A DNA stretch of 64,000 nucleotides from Paludisphaera borealis (lineage in GTDB: Bacteria; Planctomycetota; Planctomycetia; Isosphaerales; Isosphaeraceae). Where the stretch lies: contig NZ_CP019082.1 of the NCBI RefSeq assembly GCF_001956985.1, forward strand, positions 2,232,001 to 2,296,000, read 5' to 3'. Below are positions 6,931-30,948 of the stretch, piece by piece; position 1 is the stretch's first letter, and each line of letters starts with the position of its first letter. The notes under the pieces were generated by a model, which saw only the letters and a list, made by a program, of their open reading frames with translations, had not been told where the DNA came from and did no database searches. A program made the position numbers and the translations under genes.

Positions 6931-8250
6931 TCAGAGGCTCGCTCTCACGGTCGCGGCGTCGTGATCGGCCTCGCGGACGTCGCCAATGGCAGCGTCGAGC
7001 AGCTCCAACCCGATTTCAACCTGGCGCCTGGTCAGGCACAAGGGGGGACAGAACCGAACCGTGCTCGGTCCGCACGGCAGCAACAGCAGCCCGCGATGGA
7101 ACGCCGCGTCGATGATCTCGTCGCGCGTCGCCGGGGCGGGACGGCCGGCGTCGTCTTGAATCTCCATGCCGATCATCAGCCCCGTGCCGCGAACTTCGCG
7201 GATAATCGAGCGCCGACGACCGAGCGCTTCGAGGCCCTCGCGAAGCTGCGCCCCGCGCGTCTGGGCGTTGCGAAGGTATTTCGTCTCGATCAGCTTCAAC
7301 GACGCCAGGGCCGCCGCGCAGGCGACCGGGTTGCCGCCGAACGTCGACGCGTGACTGCCGCGCGGCCAGTCCATCACCGACGCCCTGGCGACGATCGCCC
7401 CCAGCGGAAGGCCGTTGGCGATCCCCTTGGCGAGGCAGATGATGTCGCCCGCGACGCCCCAGTGCTCGGCGGCGAACATCTTGCCCGTCCGGCCGAATCC
7501 GCTCTGGATCTCGTCCAAAACCAGCAAGACGCCGTGCTCGTCGCATAGCCGTCGCAGCCCCGGCAGGAAGCCGGCCTCGGGGACGATGTAGCCCCCCTCC
7601 CCCTGGATCGGCTCGACGAAGATCGCCGCCAGCTCGTCGGGCGGACAGACGGTCTTGAGCAGGGCCCGGACACTGTCGAGATCGCCGTAGCGCGCGTGGT
7701 GGATCTCGGGGACCAGCGGCGCGAAGCCCTTGCGATGGATCGGCTTCGAGGCCGACAGCGATAGCGCGCCGTAGGTCCGGCCGTGGAACGCGTTGAAGAA
7801 GGCCATCACGCGCGGACGCCCCGAGTGCCGGCGCGCCAGTTTCATCGCCGCCTCAATCGACTCGGACCCGCTGTTGGTGAAGAAGACGCGCTTGGCCTCG
7901 GCTCCCGGCGCCAGCCGCGCCAGGTGCTCGGCGAGCCGGATCTGCGGCTCGTAGTAGAAATCGGTGCCCGACATGTGGATCAACCGGCGGCTCTGACGCT
8001 CGATCGCCTTCACGACCATGGGGTGCGAATGGCCGACGTTCGTCACCGCGATCCCCGCTGTGAAGTCGAGGAAGCGGTTGCCGTCCATATCCTCGATCAT
8101 CGCCCCCTTGGCCCGACGGACGACTAGCGGGTAGACGCGCGTGTACGACGGCGACATCACGCGGTCGTCGCGCTCCAGCCACGCCTCGCTCTTCGGCCCC
8201 GGAAGCGGTCCGACGATCCTGGGTTCGTCTCGATGCAATGCGACCATCAT
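6931..8250 (-). CDS. Class III PLP-dependent aminotransferase
   Basis: A 439-residue fold-type I, class III aminotransferase (acetylornithine/4-aminobutyrate group). Visible motifs are FTNSGSESIEAAMKLAR for cofactor phosphate binding, AFFNAFHGRTYGALSLS, LVLDEIQSGFGRTGKMF with the PLP-nitrogen aspartate, CLAKGIANGLPLGA with the Schiff-base lysine at K275, and SHASTFGGNPVACAA. The N-terminus (VYPLVVRRAKGAMIEDMDGN) resembles archaeal-type GABA aminotransferase/amino-acid racemase homologues, so an omega-amino acid or lysine-like substrate, or a racemase, is possible. ATG 8250 follows GGAGGAG; further in-frame sequence upstream is not needed. It is the first gene of the minus-strand catabolic run. 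Confidence 0.9.
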   Translation of the reverse strand: MMVALHRDEPRIVGPLPGPKSEAWLERDDRVMSPSYTRVYPLVVRRAKGAMIEDMDGNRFLDFTAGIAVTNVGHSHPMVVKAIERQSRRLIHMSGTDFYYEPQIRLAEHLARLAPGAEAKRVFFTNSGSESIEAAMKLARRHSGRPRVMAFFNAFHGRTYGALSLSASKPIHRKGFAPLVPEIHHARYGDLDSVRALLKTVCPPDELAAIFVEPIQGEGGYIVPEAGFLPGLRRLCDEHGVLLVLDEIQSGFGRTGKMFAAEHWGVAGDIICLAKGIANGLPLGAIVARASVMDWPRGSHASTFGGNPVACAAALASLKLIETKYLRNAQTRGAQLREGLEALGRRRSIIREVRGTGLMIGMEIQDDAGRPAPATRDEIIDAAFHRGLLLLPCGPSTVRFCPPLCLTRRQVEIGLELLDAAIGDVREADHDAATVRASL

Positions 8251-8441
8251 GGCGCTCCTCCGCAGACGAAAGGAAAACGCGGCCGTTGATGACACGACTA
8301 CCGAAACCGCACCCGTTCTACGAACGAACCTCCTCGTTCGCTCGATCTCACCGAGAAATGGCTTTCCTTATCCATTATCGGCCCTGCCTGGCGATTAATC
8401 AAATCGACGCCGATCGACGTGGCCAGCGCACCTCGCGCGGC

Positions 8442-26613: not shown

Positions 26614-26872
26614 AGTCTGATTCCTCTGGCGCGTCCGGGTCGGGCGGCGAGCCCAGCCGCGATCCAGCGCCCGGGCTGAGCGATTTGTACGTCGCCCCCG
26701 GGAATTGTCAATCCCACATGCCGCCCGGCGCTCGCCGCAAATTCAGCCCACCGCGTGACGCCTCGAAAAAAGTCTGTCACCATGAAGCCGTCCCGCGCCA
26801 CGAATCCGAGGGGCGCCGCACCGACTTGTACTCTTAACGAGGCGTCCCGATCCTTTCGAGGAGCGGACGGCG

Positions 26873-29845
26873 ATGAACACCGTGGCGACCGATCGCATTA
26901 TCGATGAGAAACTGTGGCGATCCGTCCGCGAGGGAGACGCCGAGGCGTTCGAGCAGGTCGTGCTCCGGCACCAGGCGCTGGTCAGCGGGGTCGCCTACAA
27001 CGCCTGCGGAAACCTGGCTCTCAGCGAGGACGTCGCCCAGGAGACGTTCTGGGCCGCCTGGCGACAGCGGGATTCCCTGATCGATCCGGGCCGGCTGAAA
27101 TCGTGGCTCTGCGGGATCGCCCGGAACCTCGGCGCCAACGCCTTGCGGCGGTCGTCGGCCGGCAAGCCAGCGGGCTCGGTCGAGCGAGTGAACGACCTCG
27201 CCGACGACGATCCCGGACCGGACGACGTCGCCATGAGCCGGGAAGAGGAGGCGCGGCTCTGGTTGTTGCTGGAGCAGATCCCTCCCACGTATCGCGAGCC
27301 CCTTATCCTCTTCTACCGCCAGGACCAGTCGGTGGCCGAGGTCGCCTCGTGCCTCGATCTGACCGAGGACGCCGTCAAGCAACGGCTCGCGCGCGGCCGG
27401 TCGATGCTCCGCGACCGGATCGCCGACCAGGTGGAGGCCGGCCTCCGCCGGAGCCGCCCCGGCCGCTCGTTCACGGCCGGCGTCATGGCCGGGCTGTCGC
27501 TGGGCGCCGCCGGCGCGAAGTCGGCCGTCGCGGCGGGGACCTCGGTCACGGCCGGGACCGTCGCCAAGGGCGCTCTCGCATCGGGGCTGTCGGGGGGCCT
27601 CCTGGGCTCGCTGATCGGGATCGCGGGAGGCTGGCTCGGCGTCTGGCTCCCCGCCCAGATGGCTCCGACCGTGCGCGAGCGCGAGCTGTACCTTCGGGCC
27701 GGGCGTCGGATGGTGCTCGCGTCCCTCATCTTCACTGGCGCGATCCTCGTGATGGCCAAGACCTTGGCCGGTACGCCCCGGTACATGATCGGATTGGGAC
27801 TTGCGATCGTCCTGTTTCAGGTCTACATTTTCGCGGAAGCGATCCGGCTCAGTCGTATTATCAAGGCCATCCGCAAGACAGTCCCCGCCGCCACCGACCT
27901 CAACCAGACGGCCATGCGGCGGGGTGCGGCGTCGCTGGCGGGAAAGATTCGCGGCCGGGTCTACCAGAGCCCGATCCGGCTGCTCGGCCTGCCGCTGCTC
28001 GATATCCAGGTCGCCGACCCTGTCTTCGTGACGGGGCACGAGTCATCCCCTCTGCCTCGGGTCGCTCGCGGCTGGGTGGCGATCGGCGACGACGCTCGGG
28101 GAATCCTGCTGGGCGTCGGCTCGAAGGGTTATGGGCTGGTGGCGATAGGCGGCAGGGCCGTCGGCGGGTTGAGCATGGGGGGCGTCGCCGTCGGAGTCGT
28201 CGCGATCGGCGGCCTCGGCCTGGGCCTGGTCGGGCTCGGCGGGCTCGCCGTGGGCGTGCTCGCGTTCGGGGGTGGGGCGGTGGGCTGGCAAGCCTGCGGC
28301 GGGTTGGCCGTCGCCTGGGATCTGGCGATCGGAGGTGGGGCGATCGCGTGGAACACGGCTGCTGGAGGCGCCGCCGTGGCTCACGGCGTGGCCGGGGGCG
28401 ATCCGGCCGGTTTTGATCAGCCGGCGGGACGACTGATGCGCTGGACGCTGAATCACCGCGATCAGGTCAGGCTCGGCTTCATCGCGCTCGCGGTCGTGGT
28501 CGGGGCGTTGCCCTCGCTGCTCATGTACCGTCGAAACCGTGGTTCGGGGCTCAAGGCGTCGGCCGTCCTCGTGCCGGTCTTTCTCCTCTTCTACTTCGCG
28601 TACACGAAGGCGGAAAGCCCCGATCGCGTGGTCCGGTTCGGACTCGACAACGGCCTGACGGTCCTCGCGCGGCCGATCGCCGGGGCGAAGCAGACGGCCC
28701 TGGTCGTGCTCTACAACGTCGGCGGCGACCACGACCCGGAAGGCCGCTCGGGCCTGGCTCATATCGTGGAACACATCTATGTGACGGCCAAGGCCGGCGA
28801 GACCCCGGCGCGGTCGGCCGTCGACTTCTTCCGGAGCTATCAGGCCGGCTGCAACGCCCAGACGGGCGACCGCTACACGGCCGTCGCGACCGTTTTCCCC
28901 AGTGAGCAGCTCGACGACGAGCTGCGCCAGGCCGCGGCCCGGATGAGCGAACTCACAATCACGGCGTCGGACCTCGACCGCGAACGCCCTCGGCTGCTCG
29001 ATGAAGTCGCCAACATGTTCGAGCGCGTCCCCTCCCTCGCCGCCCAGAACAACGCCCGCGAGCTGGTCCGCCCGACGCCCCGAGGAGGACGCCGAGGCGG
29101 TCTCCCCGCGCAGGTTCAAGCCCTGCCCCTGGACGACGTCCGAGCCCACTGGAAACGGTATTACAAGCCGCGAAACGCCGTCCTTGCGGCGGCCGGGGCG
29201 ATCGATCCGGCCACCTTCCGCGCGGCCGTGACGAAGCACTTCGGGACCATTCCCGGGGGCGACCCCGCGCCGTCACCCGGCGAGCCCGGCGCGGCGGTCC
29301 TGGGCGAAGAGCGGAAGCTCGCAGCGGCCGGCTCGCCGGCGACGGCCTGCCTGGCCATGGCCCCGCCTCAACCTGGAAGCGACCTCTACGCTCCTTACCT
29401 CGTCCTTGGCACCCGGCTCATGAAGGCCGGCGCTGGGCTGGGCGGCGGGCCGGGCATGGCACCCGTTTACATGCCCTTGCTCGACGACCCCTCCCTGGTC
29501 GCCGTTTCGAGTCCCGCCAGGCCGGGCGAAACCCCGGAACAGATCGCAGGCCGGCTGTCGGCCCTGCTCGAAGAGGCGGTCAAACCGGATCTGGGCCCGG
29601 GAGAGGTTACGGAGGTCGAACAGATGTTCGGGCTCTTCCTCGGCACGGTCGAGCCTCCTGATCAAGCCCTGGCCTTGAACCCGTACGCCGTGGCCTTCAC
29701 TCTGGGGCGTCGCGAGCAGCTCGGCCTCGACCCGGTCAAGCTGCGGGCCGCGTTCCAGGCGATGAAGCCCGAGGCGGTCCGCCGGGCGGCGACGGAGGTT
29801 TTCGGGCCGTCGCGCCGGGCGAGGGTTTTCCTCGCTCCTCAATAA
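26873..29845 (+). CDS. ECF sigma factor fused to membrane domain and M16 peptidase
   Basis: One uninterrupted 990-residue frame. Residues 10-85 are sigma region 2 (LSEDVAQETFWAAWRQRDSL) and 125-180 region 4 (LTEDAVKQRLARGRSMLRD). About 195-330 hold several membrane helices. Residues 385-500 are a domain with GLPLLDI and GWVAIGDDARG followed by glycine-rich hydrophobic repeats. Two more helices lie near 530-550 and 563-580. Residues 585-990 are an M16 (pitrilysin/insulinase) domain: H630-IVE-H634, then exactly 76 residues to E711 in LLDEVANM, the full HxxEH-x76-E zinc signature, plus an M16 C-terminal half. It could be a membrane-tethered sigma factor linked to a protease. ATG 26873 follows GAGGAG. 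Confidence 0.88.
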   Translation: MNTVATDRIIDEKLWRSVREGDAEAFEQVVLRHQALVSGVAYNACGNLALSEDVAQETFWAAWRQRDSLIDPGRLKSWLCGIARNLGANALRRSSAGKPAGSVERVNDLADDDPGPDDVAMSREEEARLWLLLEQIPPTYREPLILFYRQDQSVAEVASCLDLTEDAVKQRLARGRSMLRDRIADQVEAGLRRSRPGRSFTAGVMAGLSLGAAGAKSAVAAGTSVTAGTVAKGALASGLSGGLLGSLIGIAGGWLGVWLPAQMAPTVRERELYLRAGRRMVLASLIFTGAILVMAKTLAGTPRYMIGLGLAIVLFQVYIFAEAIRLSRIIKAIRKTVPAATDLNQTAMRRGAASLAGKIRGRVYQSPIRLLGLPLLDIQVADPVFVTGHESSPLPRVARGWVAIGDDARGILLGVGSKGYGLVAIGGRAVGGLSMGGVAVGVVAIGGLGLGLVGLGGLAVGVLAFGGGAVGWQACGGLAVAWDLAIGGGAIAWNTAAGGAAVAHGVAGGDPAGFDQPAGRLMRWTLNHRDQVRLGFIALAVVVGALPSLLMYRRNRGSGLKASAVLVPVFLLFYFAYTKAESPDRVVRFGLDNGLTVLARPIAGAKQTALVVLYNVGGDHDPEGRSGLAHIVEHIYVTAKAGETPARSAVDFFRSYQAGCNAQTGDRYTAVATVFPSEQLDDELRQAAARMSELTITASDLDRERPRLLDEVANMFERVPSLAAQNNARELVRPTPRGGRRGGLPAQVQALPLDDVRAHWKRYYKPRNAVLAAAGAIDPATFRAAVTKHFGTIPGGDPAPSPGEPGAAVLGEERKLAAAGSPATACLAMAPPQPGSDLYAPYLVLGTRLMKAGAGLGGGPGMAPVYMPLLDDPSLVAVSSPARPGETPEQIAGRLSALLEEAVKPDLGPGEVTEVEQMFGLFLGTVEPPDQALALNPYAVAFTLGRREQLGLDPVKLRAAFQAMKPEAVRRAATEVFGPSRRARVFLAPQ

Positions 29846-29964
29846 GGCCGAAGCCGCTCGCGTCGGGCTCACGCGCCGTTGACCCCAGCATCGGAAGGCC
29901 GTAAATTAGGGTCTTGATTGAGCGTTCCCGCCACCCGTCCGACAGCGCCGAGAGGTTGAAGTCC

Positions 29965-30948
29965 ATGAGTGCGTTCGAGCCGCGTCCGCCGTTCTACCTG
30001 GGAATCGACCTTGGTGGAACGAATATCAAGAGCGGCGTGGTGGAGGATTCGGGGCGTCCGCTCTCGTCGGTCAGCATCGAGACGCAGGCCGACCTGGGGC
30101 CGGTGGTCGGGGTCGAGAACCTGGCTGAGGCCGGACGACTCGCGGTGCAGCAGAGCGGCCTGAAGTGGGACCAGATCGCCGCCGTCGGCCTGGGCTCGCC
30201 CGGTACAATGGACCTGTCGCGGGGGATGCTGCTCGAACCGCCCAACCTCCCCGGCTGGAACCAACTGCCGATTCGCGACCTGCTCGCCGCCAAGCTCGAC
30301 AAGCCCACGATCCTTCAGAACGACGCCAACGCCGCGGCGTTCGGCGAGTACTGGGCCGGGGCCGGCCGCAACACGCGCAGCCTGGTGCTGTTCACGCTGG
30401 GCACCGGCGTCGGCTGCGGGATCATCAGCGACGAGCGGATCATCGAAGGCCGCCACAGCCACGGCGGCGAATGCGGCCACATCATCATCCAGATGGAGAA
30501 CGGCCGGCGGTGCGCCTGCGGAGCCTACGGCCACCTCGAAGCTTACGCCTCGGCGACCGCGCTGGTCAAGCGGGCCCACGAGCTGCTGGCCGAGCAATCG
30601 ACCCGCAGCAGCCTGCGCGAGATCCCCGCCGAAGAGCTGACCAGCCGGGCGATCAACGAGGCGGCCGACGCCGGCGACGGCCTGGCCCGGCGGCTGATGC
30701 GCGAGACCTCGTACTACCTGGCCGTGGGCGCGGTCACGCTGATGCACACGATCGACCCCGACATCGTCCTGTTCGGCGGCGGCATGATCGCCGCCGGCTC
30801 GACGTTCCTGGAAGACATCCGCCAGCACATCCAGAAGATGGCGTTCCCGACCGTCGCCAAGGGCTGCAAGATCGAGTACGCCGAACTGGGGGGCGACGCC
30901 GGATTCATCGGCGCGGCCGGCTGCGCCCGCGCCGCGTTCGGCCGCTGA
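29965..30948 (+). CDS. ROK-family sugar kinase (glucokinase-like)
   Basis: A 327-residue ROK kinase that phosphorylates glucose or a related hexose with ATP. The ATP-binding motif is YLGIDLGGTNIKSG; LQNDANAAAFGE carries the catalytic aspartate; the ROK signature region is FTLGTGVGCGIISD. The zinc site is formed by HGGECGH and CACGAYGHLE. There is no DNA-binding domain, so it is an enzyme and not a NagC/Mlc repressor. ATG 29965 was selected because GAGAGG precedes it and the protein then starts just before the phosphate-binding strand. It stands alone between the sigma-M16 gene and the convergent recJ. Confidence 0.92.
   Translation: MSAFEPRPPFYLGIDLGGTNIKSGVVEDSGRPLSSVSIETQADLGPVVGVENLAEAGRLAVQQSGLKWDQIAAVGLGSPGTMDLSRGMLLEPPNLPGWNQLPIRDLLAAKLDKPTILQNDANAAAFGEYWAGAGRNTRSLVLFTLGTGVGCGIISDERIIEGRHSHGGECGHIIIQMENGRRCACGAYGHLEAYASATALVKRAHELLAEQSTRSSLREIPAEELTSRAINEAADAGDGLARRLMRETSYYLAVGAVTLMHTIDPDIVLFGGGMIAAGSTFLEDIRQHIQKMAFPTVAKGCKIEYAELGGDAGFIGAAGCARAAFGR

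Follow-up and report, generated by a model that had tools for sequence, protein, structure and literature searches.

In the planctomycete Paludisphaera borealis a single gene encodes a chain of 990 amino acids (aa) in which an extracytoplasmic function (ECF) sigma factor is followed by a membrane module, then by a glycine-rich beta-solenoid and finally by an M16 peptidase. The gene lies in a stretch of 64,000 nucleotides, here called the window (G000:C1:2232001-2296000), of a genome of 7.65 Mb. Comparison with related sequences indicates that the join of sigma factor and M16 is real and that it arose more than once. As an explanation we favour, with about an even chance of being right, a membrane-tethered one-component ECF sigma factor that would mainly drive its own gene, with an extracytoplasmic peptidase serving as sensor or as output.

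A sequence-only reading of this DNA had described one frame of 990 codons with sigma regions 2 and 4, membrane helices, a glycine-rich repeat and an M16 domain, and this description is borne out by the frame, which has no internal stop, by Pfam and by a structure model (Table 1). All four Pfam domain matches, that is, sigma regions 2 and 4, Peptidase_M16 (aa 604-718, E 3.6e-6) and Peptidase_M16_C (aa 752-849, E 4.3e-9), exceed the curated cut-offs, and the ECF class is assigned by TIGR02937 (sigma70-ECF) with 75.6 bits against a cut-off of 42.9. GC content is higher at the third than at the second codon position in 19 of 19 successive windows of 50 codons, the junction in front of the M16 part included. 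The AlphaFold model, built from a 30-row alignment, has a mean predicted local distance difference test score (pLDDT) of 83 and a predicted template modelling score of 0.53. Its sigma part is confident, the M16 domain (585-990) lies mostly above pLDDT 90, and the solenoid block (397-503, pLDDT mostly 85-94) contains an unbroken beta stretch from 407 to 492. Helices are placed at 529-551 and 563-578, and pLDDT is below 50 over 544-583.

The solenoid part matches no family of Pfam, NCBIfam or PHROGs, and no PDB entry matches the middle module at E 0.001; the likeness of this module to GlmU or gamma-carbonic anhydrase has an E of about 1 and is not evidence. The glycine-rich solenoid is also found on its own in other planctomycetes, in small proteins with frames of 153-312 aa; no family model matches their repeat, and the glycine-rich composition may inflate their similarity. 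Extensions of the IutY and ECF52/53 type hold an anti-sigma domain, either FecR-like or zinc-finger. In the window protein Pfam gives no anti-sigma domain at E up to 1 and no SnoaL-like domain, and there is no anti-sigma factor among the four neighbour genes tested. Next after the sigma-M16 gene comes a ROK-family gene (29914-30948).

Table 1. Coordinates of the sigma-M16 gene, its parts and related loci (plain numbers are window positions; prefixed ones belong to the named genome contig or locus)
Feature	Position	Strand	Basis or remark
Whole sigma-M16 gene (990 aa; ECF sigma, membrane module, solenoid and M16 in one frame)	26873..29845	+	frame, Pfam, recurrence in relatives
Predicted ECF-type promoter: TGTCACC (26775-26781), 14-base spacer, CGCCAC (26796-26801)	26775..26801	+	homolog motif
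Sigma-70 region 2 (aa 30-94)	26960..27154	+	Pfam PF04542 Sigma70_r2, E 4.3e-12
Sigma-70 region 4 (aa 128-179)	27254..27409	+	Pfam PF08281 Sigma70_r4_2, E 3.4e-10
Ala/Gly-rich low-confidence linker (aa 187-237)	27431..27583	+	pLDDT <50, disordered in AlphaFold model
Membrane module, helices aa 235-262, 267-298, 302-334	27575..27874	+	AlphaFold helices, hydropathy
Glycine-rich beta-solenoid with N-terminal cap (aa 363-503), ten-residue repeat	27959..28381	+	structure models
Helix aa 529-551 with membrane helix 4 (hydropathy peak 534-552), then MYRRNRG	28457..28525	+	hydropathy, AlphaFold (pLDDT <50 from aa 544)
Hydrophobic segment 5 (aa 558-578), where relatives have a lipoprotein-type signal peptide	28544..28606	+	hydropathy, relatives; lipobox Cys absent in window
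M16B peptidase protomer (aa 585-990)	28625..29842	+	Pfam, PDB structure matches
HxxEH zinc motif (H630, E633, H634)	28760..28774	+	invariant 20/20
Third zinc ligand E711	29003..29005	+	invariant 20/20
Second-type sigma-M16 fusions	L048:4357-6600 (-); L051:1-2370; L052:318-2612 (-)		three family genomes
Separate solenoid proteins	L084:3585-4076; L085:3850-4785 (-); L086:1617-2396; L087:3217-3675; L088:3584-4102		
Methyltransferase-like gene	L009:9091-9879 (next after sigma gene); L054:8564-9352 (close after); L056:3415-4212 (further on)		clustering
Genus motif matches in no clear coding frame	G028:C2:2009088; G028:C2:3125380; G028:C8:12723; G029:C1:509132; G031:C1:252950; G032:C10:3892; G032:C12:2076		candidate extra sigma targets

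The search for the same architecture in relatives, which the sequence-only reading had proposed, yielded the full fusion, without a stop inside, in 7 of 45 family genomes: five belong to one genus, P. borealis (G000) among them, and two, G001 and G002, to another. Because of this recurrence, an assembly join is very unlikely as the source of the fusion. A join or frameshift at 28560-28680 is rejected, as the frame runs on through this junction in five genus genomes. It was also considered, and rejected, that translation starts anew at the M16 part; in the window the ATG in sight is that of MYRR, and no convincing Shine-Dalgarno sequence was seen before it by eye. In G029, AAAGGAG stands only 2 bases before an in-frame ATG.

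Among 17 homologs of the sigma-membrane part, seven are fused and two split, so that the homologues are not always two genes, and eight lack M16. In this set the close relatives L013 and L016 are both counted, L009, L011 and L012 were left out as duplicates of G030, G037 and G023, and L017, a sigma fragment at a contig end, stands outside the 17 and was added as an eighteenth for the promoter-like motif. The split genomes are G037 and G014, where two adjacent genes encode the protein; the first stops just past helix 4 (MYRR...) and the second opens with a signal-like sequence, and in G014 the two overlap as TGATG. The sigma-membrane-solenoid protein without M16 occurs in G032, G022 and G023 and at five loci of other planctomycetes (L010, L013-L016). 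The flanks of these eight loci hold no convincing M16 gene, L061, with only 801 bases downstream, being one that cannot be judged. The best candidate for an M16 remnant in the core-only loci, a match of E 0.012 lying antisense inside the L016 core gene, was rejected as chance. No second M16 gene was found beside the fusion in the fused and split loci scanned; L082 has a weak extra M16 match (18.3 bits) beside its separate M16.

The M16 part also occurs by itself. G038 carries M16 alone, without a sigma-membrane gene, which is consistent with a loss of the sigma half at this locus, and in a phylum sample of 392 genomes seven besides P. borealis, all outside the family, hold a close M16 (E up to 1e-40) in frames of 449-633 aa with no sigma part. 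The lone M16 of G038 (L050:8036-9382) seemingly lies at the same locus as that of G037 (L049), the two having four neighbour clusters in common.

In a second type of fusion, present in G037, G018 and G016, a different ECF sigma factor is linked through a single hydrophobic helix to a peptidase of the same M16 subfamily. In all three, Pfam recognises sigma regions 2 and 4 and M16_C, with PF00675 below the cut-off in G018. Identity to the window sigma is 28 and 31% in G018 and G016, and the G037 sigma has no blastp match to it.

A tree of the sigma-membrane part separates the fusions of the genus, five in all, from G001 and G002, which group beside the split G014 (support 97/97), and nests G032, which has no M16, in the fused same-genus group. 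This tree, for which the fused proteins were cut before M16 and in which frames may include residues upstream of the true start, requires the fused label to change at least twice. Placing all fused rows and G032 in one clade is rejected weakly (approximately unbiased test, p-AU 0.036) and excluding G032 from the same-genus group is rejected at 0.0005; as the groups were chosen after the tree had been seen, these p values are optimistic. The M16 tree alone does not force two events, since a single branch in it can set the seven fused rows apart from the rest. The simplest reading of the trees would be two fusions, one loss of M16 (G032) and a third joining to another sigma factor, and one fusion followed by fission in G014 is a conceivable alternative. 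At the place in G032 where M16 was lost, directly behind the core-only sigma gene, an inverted repeat around CCCCTCGCGGGGGAAG was noticed by eye (L054, about 8200-8400), perhaps a small mobile repeat. A methyltransferase-like gene (L057:7061-7849, minus strand; Pfam on the L057 copy) directly follows the sigma gene in L057, and clustering places such genes after three further sigma genes, at differing distances (Table 1).

In an alignment of 20 family M16 sequences H630, E633, H634 and E711 are invariant, and the 76 residues counted earlier do separate H634 from E711. The seven best PDB matches of the model are all M16B, with 370-393 residues aligned at Z 33.1-34.9 and a root-mean-square deviation of 3.1-3.7, so that the part has the M16 fold in a protomer of about 400 residues; the nearest by sequence is PA0372 of the heterodimer PA0371-PA0372. 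The earlier description of a complete M16 stands as to the zinc signature and is too strong as to completeness, since the domain is one M16B protomer in which the canonical R/Y segment is absent. None of the 20 rows has an R/Y motif at the canonical place; the segment is shortened there, and a PLDDP-like motif replaces it in most rows. In fold and zinc ligands the fused M16 is the same as the M16B peptidases PA0372, Sphingomonas A1 3ami and TTHA1264/1265, whereas the shortened segment and the join to a sigma factor set it apart. M16B enzymes work as dimers, and the closed chamber of M16 enzymes admits small peptides, not folded membrane chains. Judged from the alignment, the fused M16 is probably one catalytic-type protomer that would need a partner or form a homodimer. 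An M16 of 425 aa encoded elsewhere in the P. borealis genome does have the R/Y motif, which reads REKRGLCY there. An adjacent pair of ordinary M16 genes in this genome (G000:C1:3260358-3262128, L001), one with HxxEH and one with the R/Y motif, offers a possible partner in trans for the fused M16.

On which side of the membrane the peptidase lies was judged from the relatives. In ten of ten separate M16 genes a hydrophobic, export-like segment directly precedes the domain, in some with a lipobox (clearest as LLGC in G083). A lipobox is found mid-protein in four of the five same-genus fusions (LAGC, LAGC, FSGC, LAGC), at the point where the split genes begin; the window protein reads FAYTKAES at this junction and has lost the lipobox cysteine of a signal peptidase II substrate. 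Helix 4 appears as a hydrophobic peak in 15 of the 17 homologs and is absent in G001 and G002, in which both segment 4 and segment 5 are missing. The net charge rises across it in 13 of these 15 (equal in L010, opposite in L015), which suggests a helix ending in the cytosol. Between solenoid and M16 the sigma-core fusions have two segments or none, and this common parity would leave solenoid and M16 on one side. Given the parity, the retained lipoboxes and the charge rise across helix 4, the M16 part is likely extracytoplasmic.

Several points weigh against this placement. Its basis is hydropathy together with the model, whose mean pLDDT is 83. Of the five same-genus fusions, three have a segment 5 that exceeds the hydropathy threshold over 19 residues; in G028 and G030 it is only a short signal-like stretch, and in G001 and G002 it is missing along with segment 4. 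The charges of helices 2 and 3 fit an in-out-in hairpin, an arrangement with the solenoid on the cytosolic side, and two solenoid relatives with a zinc-ribbon-like start (below the Pfam cut-off) and no export signal look cytosolic. One, two or three helices of the membrane module may cross the membrane.

A promoter-like motif precedes the gene and its homologs. YGTCACS-N14-NGMCAC was found upstream of the sigma start in 16 of 18 homologs (16 of 16 among the regions first examined), and the other two, L015 and the fragment L017, have the weaker forms TGTCACG-N14-CAACACA and TGTCACA-N14-AGGCACT, at spacing 14 when spacers of 13-15 were tried; the spacing is exactly 14 in all 18. Shuffled regions attain the lowest observed score in 0.75% of draws, in a simple letter shuffle with spacers of 14-16 and with a motif read from the very sequences it was scored on. 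The motif was not found at the second-type fusion loci (G037, G018 and G016, with 2209 bases upstream in G016 and none in G018), nor at the lone M16 of G038 or the seven separate M16 genes from other families. The ECF consensus AAC-N14..18-CGT gives one match in 16 upstream regions.

The strict form TGTCACC-N14-NGCCAC has a single match in the P. borealis genome, at window position 26775. Across six genomes of the genus it has 4 matches in 3 genomes, two of them off the sigma gene (G028:C8, G032:C12), and its reversed control has 1. A relaxed form matches 8 places in the P. borealis genome (reversed control 0), the 7 others lying in strong coding frames. TGTCACC-N14-NGCCACW has 10 matches in the 45 family genomes, half of them at sigma genes, and the reversed pattern has 9. 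YGTCACC-N14-YGCCACY, a form that misses the window's own site, which ends in G, has 22 matches in the genus against 0 reversed; 5 are at sigma genes, and of the remaining 17, strong coding frames cover 10, while no clear coding frame covers the other 7. From these counts we infer that the sigma factor recognises its own promoter and has a very small regulon. Against so narrow a target range it has to be said that the motif was counted in the sequences it was derived from, that the reversed controls (0 against 8 and 0 against 22) leave non-sigma matches not all explained, that the seven genus matches outside clear coding frames are possible extra targets, and that weaker target sites would escape such a search. 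The motif is also possibly the operator of another regulator.

The mechanism that we favour builds on four things that the sequences show: how the parts are arranged, that fusions recur, that the catalytic residues do not vary and that a promoter-like motif is conserved upstream. The sigma part would lie in the cytosol, one or three membrane helices would lead the chain to an extracytoplasmic beta-solenoid, and segments 4 and 5 would cross in and out again, leaving the M16B protomer outside. On activation, the sigma factor would direct RNA polymerase to TGTCACC-N14-CGCCAC, and because the sole strict copy of the motif in the genome precedes its own gene, the main output would be more of the same protein and hence more extracytoplasmic peptidase. 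The M16 part would most likely act on small peptides of the envelope space, either feeding the sensor or forming the output. The sigma factor may act while tethered, or may be freed by the intramembrane protease of the cell as in IutY. A more far-reaching form of this mechanism is a closed single-gene loop, with sensor, sigma factor and enzyme in one chain, the own promoter as essentially the sole target and the sigma factor amplifying the peptidase, while the relatives with a lipobox would also be polyproteins cut by signal peptidase II; we put it forward tentatively, as the less probable version.

The sequence-only reading had proposed that the sigma factor is held at the membrane and that the M16 part cuts its own chain to free it, making anti-sigma factor and site-1 protease unnecessary. 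A sigma factor held at the membrane with built-in control is plausible, as helices follow the sigma part and an anti-sigma domain is missing from the protein and the four neighbours; its release by the protease part of the same chain is not borne out, and we regard it as improbable. The joining of M16 to two different ECF sigmas and the invariant catalytic residues would suit self-release, as would the report that the membrane-fused IutY is freed by proteolysis through Prc and RseP (PMC8999054). However, eight of the 17 sigma-core homologs do without M16, and G032 lost it yet kept the sigma gene and the motif. The export-like starts and retained lipoboxes suggest that the enzyme lies outside the membrane, where it could not cut the cytosolic linker between sigma factor and membrane, and its chamber is suited to small peptides. 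Since M16 has been dispensable for the sigma factor over evolution, a role as sensor input or output suits it better than that of release enzyme; conceivably it cuts the extracytoplasmic part of its own chain as a first step. The release problem would look different with M16 in the cytosol of the sigma-core fusions, the solenoid inside and segments 4 and 5 forming a hairpin, as the peptidase could then act on the sigma factor or its partners. The helix 2/3 hairpin, positively charged at either end, and the solenoid proteins with zinc-ribbon-like starts and no export signal point that way, but the lipoboxes, the export-like starts of the separate relatives and the net charge, which increases over helix 4 in 13 of 15 homologs, make it highly improbable.

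Two further explanations do without self-cleavage. The chain could be a polyprotein in which segment 5 is an internal signal peptide and signal peptidase parts the sigma factor from M16, with the same products as the two-gene form. The junction lipoboxes of four same-genus fusions, lying where the split genes start their signal-like sequence, and the overlapping genes of G014 argue for it, and a precedent is FbcH (cytochrome b/c1), on which a literature search gave nothing usable. The window protein, however, has no cysteine there, AYTKA-ES may be cut by signal peptidase I or may have no role, and G001 and G002 have no such segment, so we think this explanation unlikely. A neutral fusion of co-transcribed neighbours, with no working link between sigma factor and peptidase, would agree with the separate occurrence of each part, namely the eight core-only loci, the lone M16 of G038 and the seven M16 genes outside the family. 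Yet repeated joining, once to a different sigma factor, exceeds what a single neighbourhood accident would give, and we hold this explanation, too, to be improbable.

Long C-terminal extensions on ECF sigmas are reported to be common in planctomycetes (PMC8999054, PMC8567305), and those with membrane extensions (IutY/ECF243; ECF48, ECF52, ECF53) are thought to be activated by proteolysis (PMC8999054). Like IutY, ECF48, ECF52 and ECF53, the window protein combines an ECF sigma and membrane helices in one chain with an extracytoplasmic part. In contrast to the IutY type, it has no Pfam anti-sigma domain and carries an M16 protomer and a solenoid, and IutY is described as being cut by separate proteases (PMC8999054). 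The extensions of ECF57 and of the planctomycete ECF sigmas of Tuwongella are WD40 repeats, whereas the window protein bears a peptidase, a kind of extension not met with in the papers searched. For ECF41 a promoter consensus TGTCACA-n16-CGTC is given (PMC3426412); the -35 element is similar to the TGTCACC of the window, but the -10 element differs (CGCCAC against CGTC), so that this is not an ECF41 promoter, and the window protein, unlike ECF41, lacks a SnoaL-like domain by Pfam and is membrane-bound. Among openly licensed PMC papers, judged by titles and abstracts, there is no report of M16 as an extension of an ECF sigma. ECF sigmas with C-terminal extensions, membrane extensions included, are already known.

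The family offers a natural series of fused, split and peptidase-free forms, together with a conserved promoter-like motif that could serve directly as a reporter and an enzyme with a defined active site, so that signal, switch and output can be tested separately. If the single-target loop is true, an ECF sigma factor can be the private expression device of one envelope protein.

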